Positions 4,879 through 5,824 of a stretch of 47,414 nucleotides of DNA are shown here, piece after piece. The position numbers were made by a program, and so were the translations under genes. The notes beneath the pieces are model-generated. The model did no database searches and was not told where the DNA came from. It was given only the letters and a program-made list of their open reading frames with translations. This DNA comes from Mitsuaria sp. GD03876. GTDB lineage: Bacteria > Pseudomonadota > Gammaproteobacteria > Burkholderiales > Burkholderiaceae_C. The stretch covers positions 1 through 47,414 of the forward strand of contig NZ_JAOCCU010000048.1 in NCBI RefSeq assembly GCF_029840635.1, read 5' to 3'. Within the stretch, counting starts at the first letter, position 1; every line of letters starts with the position of its first letter.

Positions 4879-4953
4879 GGGCGGGGCGCGAGCGGCGCCC
4901 TCGATCGACGTCTTCCAGCAAAACAGGCTGAAGTCCTACCCATTCGTTTGGAA

Positions 4954-4977
4954 GATGCACGAGTTTGGGTGTGCATC
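4954..4977. repeat. Inverted repeat upstream of bacteriocin-like gene
   Basis: Two perfect 7-bp arms, gatgcac (4954-4960) and gtgcatc (4971-4977), are separated by 10 nt. The pair lies about 115 bp upstream of the bacteriocin-like ORF in a stretch of clearly lower GC than the surroundings. It could be an operator or a small hairpin. No regulator can be assigned. Confidence 0.35.
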
Positions 4978-5092
4978 GGTCATCGAAGCCAGGGCGGGAA
5001 ATGAATGCAATGAAGTCGTCCCATTGACGAACGCCGTCAGGGGACGGAGGCGGGCATGTCGCCGCGCCTCCTCCATCCAACTGGAGACTTTC

Positions 5093-5422
5093 ATGACTGC
5101 ATTCATTGCCAATCCGACCCCCGTCCATGCCGGCGCGTGGCGCGCCGACGCCGGGGAGCCGGTCGGCATTCAGGAATTGACCTTGGAGGAGATCGAGCAG
5201 GTGCATGGCGGGTTCGGGCCCGCTGGAGCCCTGGCGGGAGCGGTGGGCGCTGGCGTGGGCTCGTACTTGACGGGAGGCAACGCTGGTCAAGTCGCCGCCG
5301 CAGCGATCTTCGGTGGCGTCGCCGGCTTCTTCTGCGGCGTGGGGATGTACGCCAGTTCGGCAACGGTGGCCGCCATGGGCACGTTCGCCACCAGCAGCAC
5401 GAACAGGTACACGCAGCGCTAA
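5093..5422 (+). CDS. Class II bacteriocin-like peptide precursor with double-glycine leader
   Basis: A 109-aa precursor starting at the ATG at 5093 behind a ctggag ribosome-binding site. Residues 28-40 (ELTLEEIEQVHGG) match the double-glycine leader consensus, with Leu -12, Glu -8, Ile -7, Val -4 and GlyGly at -2/-1. Cleavage after Gly40 would release a 69-residue, Gly/Ala-rich hydrophobic peptide with repeated GxxxG-like spacing (AGAVGAGVG, GGVAGFFCGVG) and one Cys, so no internal disulfide. Such leaders are cut and exported by peptidase-containing ABC transporters; none is encoded in this window. The next gene is a small membrane protein, a candidate immunity partner. The 40-aa leader is longer than usual. 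Antibacterial activity is inference. Confidence 0.8.
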   Translation: MTAFIANPTPVHAGAWRADAGEPVGIQELTLEEIEQVHGGFGPAGALAGAVGAGVGSYLTGGNAGQVAAAAIFGGVAGFFCGVGMYASSATVAAMGTFATSSTNRYTQR

Positions 5423-5435
5423 AAGCCCGATGAAT

Positions 5436-5463
5436 GGTCGGCACGGTGTCAGCCGTGCCGACC
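5436..5463 (+). repeat. Perfect 11-bp stem hairpin between bacteriocin-like and membrane gene
   Basis: ggtcggcacgg (5436-5446) pairs perfectly with ccgtgccgacc (5453-5463) around a 6-nt loop. No T-run follows, so it is a poor intrinsic terminator. It may stabilise or partly attenuate the transcript between the peptide gene and the downstream gene, giving unequal expression. Confidence 0.6.
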
Positions 5464-5482
5464 TCACTCCAAGAGCCCAACG

Positions 5483-5824
5483 ATGAACAACTTCGACATT
5501 CAGTTCGGCCTCAATAGCGTCACCTTCGTCGTCATCATGGTCAGTCACGCGGACCGATTTGCTTCAAGGGCGGGCCGCCTGTCATTGATTGGATTCCTGG
5601 CGGTCGTCTTCGCCAGCAATGCCGTGTTGAACCTGGACCGGTTCGCGCCGTGGGAGGCCATCGTGCGAGGAGCAGGAAATGCCGCGGTCGTCGCCGTGTG
5701 CACCCTCGCGCTGGCCCGCTACAACGAATGGCGCCGCATGAAGAAGGCAAGCGCCGCGCCCCGCGGCGCCACTTCGGCTACTGCTGCGGATACACCCGCA
5801 GCCCCGCCAGGTCCAGCACCCTGA
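5483..5824 (+). CDS. Small membrane protein, candidate bacteriocin immunity protein
   Basis: A 113-aa protein with three hydrophobic stretches (about residues 10-22, 32-50 and 59-78), followed by a basic segment (RYNEWRRMKK) and a disordered Ala/Pro-rich tail. I recognise no family. It starts 60 bp after the bacteriocin-like gene on the same strand with only a hairpin between, the usual place and size for an immunity protein that protects the producer's membrane. Its last 47 bp overlap the convergent Crp/Fnr-type gene, and the tail is compositionally like that overlap, so the C-terminus may be secondarily extended. Immunity function is inferred from position and topology only. Confidence 0.65.
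   Translation: MNNFDIQFGLNSVTFVVIMVSHADRFASRAGRLSLIGFLAVVFASNAVLNLDRFAPWEAIVRGAGNAAVVAVCTLALARYNEWRRMKKASAAPRGATSATAADTPAAPPGPAP

Follow-up and report, generated by a model that had tools for sequence, protein, structure and literature searches.

Class II microcins of the microcin V type are encoded by the genes CvaA, CvaB, CvaC and Cvi, and class IIb bacteriocins consist of two peptides that are normally encoded together and carry GxxxG helix–helix motifs. Criteria given for class II microcins include hydrophobic residues at positions −4, −7 and −12, a glycine content of 12–26% and a length below 150 residues (excerpts of PMC11494933). Immunity candidates have been chosen as small proteins (51–216 aa) with membrane segments whose genes adjoin the peptide gene, and the number of validated class II microcins is given as only ten, most of them from E. 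coli (excerpts of PMC9746304). A shown case outside the enterobacteria is McbABCI of Moraxella catarrhalis, described in extracts of its report as an intact, transcriptionally linked cluster in which genes for secretion accompany a GG peptide of 101 or 77 aa (its start being variable) that is immediately followed by a small immunity gene; mcbC and mcbI overlap, and both killing and immunity were shown (PMC2761928). The nap island of Neisseria gonorrhoeae, again from extracts, holds three bacteriocin-like peptides and a downstream candidate immunity gene and has a reported role in autolysis of the producer (PMC11798529). Among the matches listed in our literature search, no titles or abstract openings named a Roseateles bacteriocin.

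The locus described here looks like a new instance of this known kind, a GG peptide with a small membrane partner, and one of several such pairs in its genus. It lies in a stretch of 47,414 nucleotides from Mitsuaria sp. GD03876 (the window, which is the whole of contig C43). Judging from sequence, the pair is probably a microcin-like bacteriocin precursor with its immunity gene, gained as a cassette insertion, with the precursor exported by a C39 ABC/HlyD system encoded elsewhere in the genome. Like the nap island, it combines a bacteriocin-like peptide with a downstream candidate immunity gene; unlike what the extracts describe there, it has neither three peptides in one island nor a reported role in producer autolysis.

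The precursor gene (5093–5422, forward strand, with GGAG upstream at 5083–5086) encodes 109 aa with GG at residues 39–40, as the original prediction stated, and its assignment rests on the reading frame, the relatives P0002–P0005 and the NCBIfam model TIGR03949 (lactobin A/cerein 7B class IIb family; 25.3 bits against a cut-off of 21.5). The leader (residues 1–40; 5093–5212, forward strand) places V37, I34 and L29 at −4, −7 and −12 of the GG site. Cleavage after GG would leave a mature peptide of 69 aa (5213–5419, forward strand) with 22% Gly, a net charge of +2 and one Cys. Twenty of the 109 precursor residues are Gly (18.3%), which is within the microcin range, as is the length. The leader residues, glycine content and small membrane partner are shared with class II microcins of the microcin V type, as is the presence of C39 ABC and HlyD genes somewhere in the genome. 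The window differs from them in the exporter not being at the locus and in a longer N-terminal extension ahead of the leader motif. For leader length the class criterion is 15–18 aa; the leader has 40 aa here, while those of P0003 and of the peptide in G013, counted from their sequences, have 15 aa. A further difference is that neither the partner nor the later part of the peptide matches any library family searched.

The peptide had first been thought to match nothing known; this was put too strongly, as it passes the TIGR03949 cut-off, though the model covers only residues 26–58, that is, the leader and the first mature residues. The precursor is the sole place above this cut-off in its own genome, and 14 control genomes contained no such place. 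Of the seven sequences in alignment A4, five match the model with E values of 0.1 or lower. Pfam gave no match above cut-off for the peptide or its partner, and solved structures searched with the peptide gave two matches, at E 0.24. The mature part is glycine-rich, as predicted, but the number of GxxxG motifs does not exceed chance: five were found against 2.9 expected, and the fraction of 5000 composition-keeping shuffles reaching five was 0.11, so GxxxG enrichment was rejected. Strong peptide matches came from the window genome (G000), G013 and G004, all three used in the model, and five more genomes gave weaker ones (E 1e-5 or worse). Plasmid carriage was considered and dropped, P0001 and P0018 having no match in 72,556 plasmid records, and searches of genome_contigs and viral_contigs confirmed no relatives.

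TIGR03949 is named for class IIb, and the genome encodes more glycine-rich GG peptides, both of which would suit a pair that is one half of a two-peptide bacteriocin with its second peptide elsewhere, for example on contig C13 or C44. We regard this as improbable, since the leader profile finds a single GG leader on the window contig, whereas the two peptides of class IIb normally lie together, and the C13 and C44 peptides each have their own downstream membrane ORF. A bacteriocin precursor with its immunity gene remains the reading we prefer.

Downstream of the peptide gene, after a gap of 60 bp, lies the partner gene (5483–5824, forward strand), whose 113-aa product is a candidate immunity protein on the basis of its ORF, hydropathy and family alignments A2 and A6; gap and length are as first described. 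Its size, membrane segments and position 60 bp downstream of the peptide all agree with how immunity candidates have been chosen (51–216 aa). Three transmembrane segments had been proposed; membrane segments are indeed present, but a simple hydropathy scan gives two for the window protein. Over 16 family members the scan found three segments in eight, two in six and one in two; all these counts are rough because gapped alignment rows were used. Of the 16 proteins listed as partner matches, thirteen measure 82–97 aa and the other three 113, 126 and 142 aa. In the window the last 15 residues (99–113; 5777–5824, forward strand) are the 3' end of crp read on the opposite strand. P0007, 84% identical to the window partner, has the same crp-derived tail and therefore probably sits at the same insertion site. 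The partner had no NCBIfam match, no Pfam match over cut-off and no solved-structure match, in keeping with the original view that it resembles nothing known, at least in the libraries searched. Two source names (RDD/YckC) had suggested an RDD family protein; neither P0009 nor the window protein gave a Pfam RDD match, and the candidate was dropped.

Judged by DNA comparison, the pair is an insertion of roughly 0.9 kb between a GNAT gene and crp. Similarity of the window to seven relatives ends at 4879–4900 and restarts at 5756–5785. In 14 of the 15 other genus genomes GNAT and crp are convergent, with 15–188 bp between aligned ends and neither peptide nor partner; these comparisons place the inserted stretch at approximately 4881–5776. 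In G007 (L192:507-1433) the GNAT–crp interval holds a 308-aa ORF, so that the same site is filled differently. The pair was predicted to lie in a lower-GC island, and it does: GC content is 60.7% in the upstream region, 67.9% in the peptide gene and 63.7% in the partner gene, compared with a window value of 70.2% and with 72.6% and 72.0% in the two neighbouring genes. A direct repeat, GCGGCGCC, at the insertion ends (4892 and 5763) was considered and set aside because the window contains 20 occurrences of this 8-mer.

The 190 bp upstream of the peptide gene (4903–5092, forward strand) are possibly regulatory. They are 88% identical to positions 2810–3000 of contig C63 of the same genome, the only other near-full match there, and the similarity extends into the peptide gene. 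No sigma-70-like site was found in this region. It contains a candidate inverted repeat, GATGCAC/GTGCATC (4954–4977), both arms of which are kept in the C63 copy, with two loop bases differing. Between the two genes a hairpin (5436–5463, forward strand) was identified from the fold of 5420–5485, which has −27.3 kcal/mol and, relative to 200 shuffled sequences, a z of −4.4; it was not called as a terminator. The exact pattern searched for is present in the genome only here and at C63:3421-3448, where it follows the partner gene. At this C63 hairpin, after the partner, another small ORF begins (L074:3428-3703), whose product has two hydrophobic segments.

The sister cassette on C63 carries an internally deleted peptide gene; what is left corresponds to approximately the first 27 and the final 19 residues of a peptide resembling P0005 (70% and 95% identity), and the two remnant matches overlap by 15 bases. 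Downstream of it the partner homologue (P0008) has an open reading frame. P0011 is very similar to P0008, and P0005 and P0011 are each listed with one contig, of 14524 bases in both cases, which suggests that these are probably the intact form of the C63 cassette.

Across the genus, seven copies of the partner family were found in five of 16 genomes: two follow an intact peptide gene (the window and G013), one the deleted peptide gene on C63, and four have no peptide. For those four, in G001, G003 and G014 (two copies), tblastn at E 0.01 over fetched loci of about 10 kb detected no such peptide. The original prediction asked whether homologues of the two genes always occur as a pair and staked itself on their not being always apart. 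Co-occurrence is found in the window, in G013 and, with its peptide gene deleted, on C63, and probably holds for P0005/P0011; constant pairing fails, as the four copies without peptide make plain. The listed contigs of P0002–P0004 (the longest contig per cluster) had none in common with the partner matches. In a family-wide sample, with 12 candidates scored per genome, the partner appeared in two of 399 genomes, both of the genus, and a single-sequence partner search of 199 relatives gave E better than 1e-3 in genus genomes only, with many weaker matches elsewhere.

The G013 locus runs HlyD, peptide, partner and a truncated C39 transporter, the fragments of which match residues 8–56 and 523–693 of the transporter sequence from contig C23 of the window genome. 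All four gene types that the extracts describe for McbABCI are present there, with a different gene order and a truncated transporter, and the window has no transporter at all. In G001 the partner stands alone; the genes on either side of it share 95% and 88% identity with their counterparts flanking the G013 cluster. Loss of the rest in G001 seems the simpler reading of this comparison, the alternative being a gain in G013.

The four partners lacking a peptide of the window type are also compatible with another role for the partner. The peptide might be an exported signal or biofilm factor that the membrane protein senses or escorts, and GG peptides in such roles exist, as with the biofilm proteins of Synechococcus elongatus (PMC4997328, in extracts). 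We think this unlikely. Partners that have lost or lack their peptide (C63, G001), the diversity of peptide and partner types in one genus, and the patchy spread of the partner family all suit a toxin with its immunity gene better than a signal.

No export peptidase-transporter had been seen near the pair, and indeed the window contig has no C39 match. The expectation that one would be encoded elsewhere was borne out: six C39 matches above cut-off are found in the genome, two of them strong and located on contigs C1 (E 2e-36) and C23 (E 8e-34), both genes with open reading frames, and each of the 16 genus genomes has at least three. Class II microcins are expected to have a C39 transporter and HlyD near the peptide; the window contig has no C39 match, and both genes are present on C23, where the order is HlyD, a 49-aa GG peptide and C39-ABC. 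The leaders of this 49-aa peptide and of the window peptide align well. On contig C18 of G014 a partner gene lies behind a C39-ABC gene with an open frame and an HlyD gene. Two further arrangements were seen: in L163 (G013:C1:884453-886003) a C39 gene at 886283 is preceded by a pair of short GG peptides, both of which carry a doubled leader-like motif, and in L093 (G006:C2:489432) about 1.5 kb separates a C39 match from a GG-leader ORF of 190 aa, long for a bacteriocin precursor.

The exporter genes also bear on whether the locus is silent, its precursor unexported and the pair a relic on the way to loss, as on C63. Decay of that sister cassette, truncation of the G013 transporter and the tail that the partner gained from crp would all be in keeping with such a fate. 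To us it has little probability: both window frames are open, the C39 genes on C23 and C1 have open frames, and P0007, with 84% identity and the same tail, indicates that the partner has at least been retained for some time.

Other GG-leader genes, which the original prediction had proposed looking for, are found elsewhere in the genome (e.g., on C13, C44 and C23). Across the loci examined we took 39 leader-profile matches (E up to 0.025, weaker ones being left out), some of which may not be genes, and counted a downstream ORF if it was on the same strand, 45–170 aa long, had at least two hydrophobic segments and started −30 to +260 bp from the stop. Such an ORF followed 13 of the 39 GG leaders and two of 126 long genes of the same loci (Fisher p 9e-8, a value that is too strong because the leader matches are related rather than independent). 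The remaining 26 had no downstream ORF with two or more transmembrane segments; nine of these had a one-segment ORF, including an artefact in G012 where the downstream ORF is the GG peptide itself. Recurrent peptide types had related downstream genes across genomes: type B in three (31–35% identity over short stretches), type E in two and type F in three. Type D downstream genes are related in three genomes, with a distant fourth (E 0.003); from the look of their sequences these were guessed to be CPBP proteases, and the two tested gave no such Pfam match.

Several of these loci have recognisable forms. On C13 (L077:4963-5439) an 88-aa GG peptide is followed directly by a 69-aa membrane ORF, with related pairs at G002:C14 and G006:C4. 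On C44 (L095:6131-6832) a 130-aa membrane ORF lies downstream of an 86-aa GG peptide that scores just below the cut-off of Pfam Bacteriocin_IIc (26.8 against 27.1 bits). GG peptides ending in GAGSGAGTFG in three genomes (L174:4932-5429, L160:1064-1546 and L100:2748-3230) precede related membrane proteins of 161–166 aa, two of which were tested and gave no Pfam match over cut-off. Mature parts starting DxWAG (L101, L161, L175, L158, L164 and L169) occur in several genomes, three of them with a membrane ORF of 143–150 aa downstream.

The precursor has an export leader and a small membrane partner, the pair was gained as a cassette, and the partner also occurs where the peptide is lost or missing; together these features form the pattern expected of a bacteriocin with its immunity gene. 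Against this reading we count the absence of an exporter at the locus, a number of GxxxG motifs no higher than chance, the four partner copies lacking such a peptide, the listed contigs of P0002–P0004 that do not recur among the partner matches, the 26 of 39 GG leaders with no multi-transmembrane ORF downstream, and the G004 peptide, which is followed by an unrelated 71-aa ORF different from the window partner. We hypothesize that a peptidase-C39 ABC transporter would recognise the precursor by its GG leader, cleave it after Gly40 and export the product, with HlyD as its partner; the likeliest candidate is the system on C23, away from the locus. Once exported, the mature peptide, hydrophobic and rich in glycine, may attack the inner membrane of closely related bacteria and kill them, while the producer would be shielded by the small membrane protein.

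More tentatively, the genus, probably Roseateles, may possess a modular bacteriocin arsenal in which cassettes of upstream region, peptide, hairpin and immunity gene occupy scattered sites on the chromosome and share a C39/HlyD exporter that has its own small GG peptide, with decayed cassettes keeping immunity genes against kin. A genus with many GG peptides, 13 of 39 of them with small multi-transmembrane genes, offers testable pairs of peptide and immunity gene, and its decayed cassette and solitary partner genes are a natural record of the gain and loss of such pairs.
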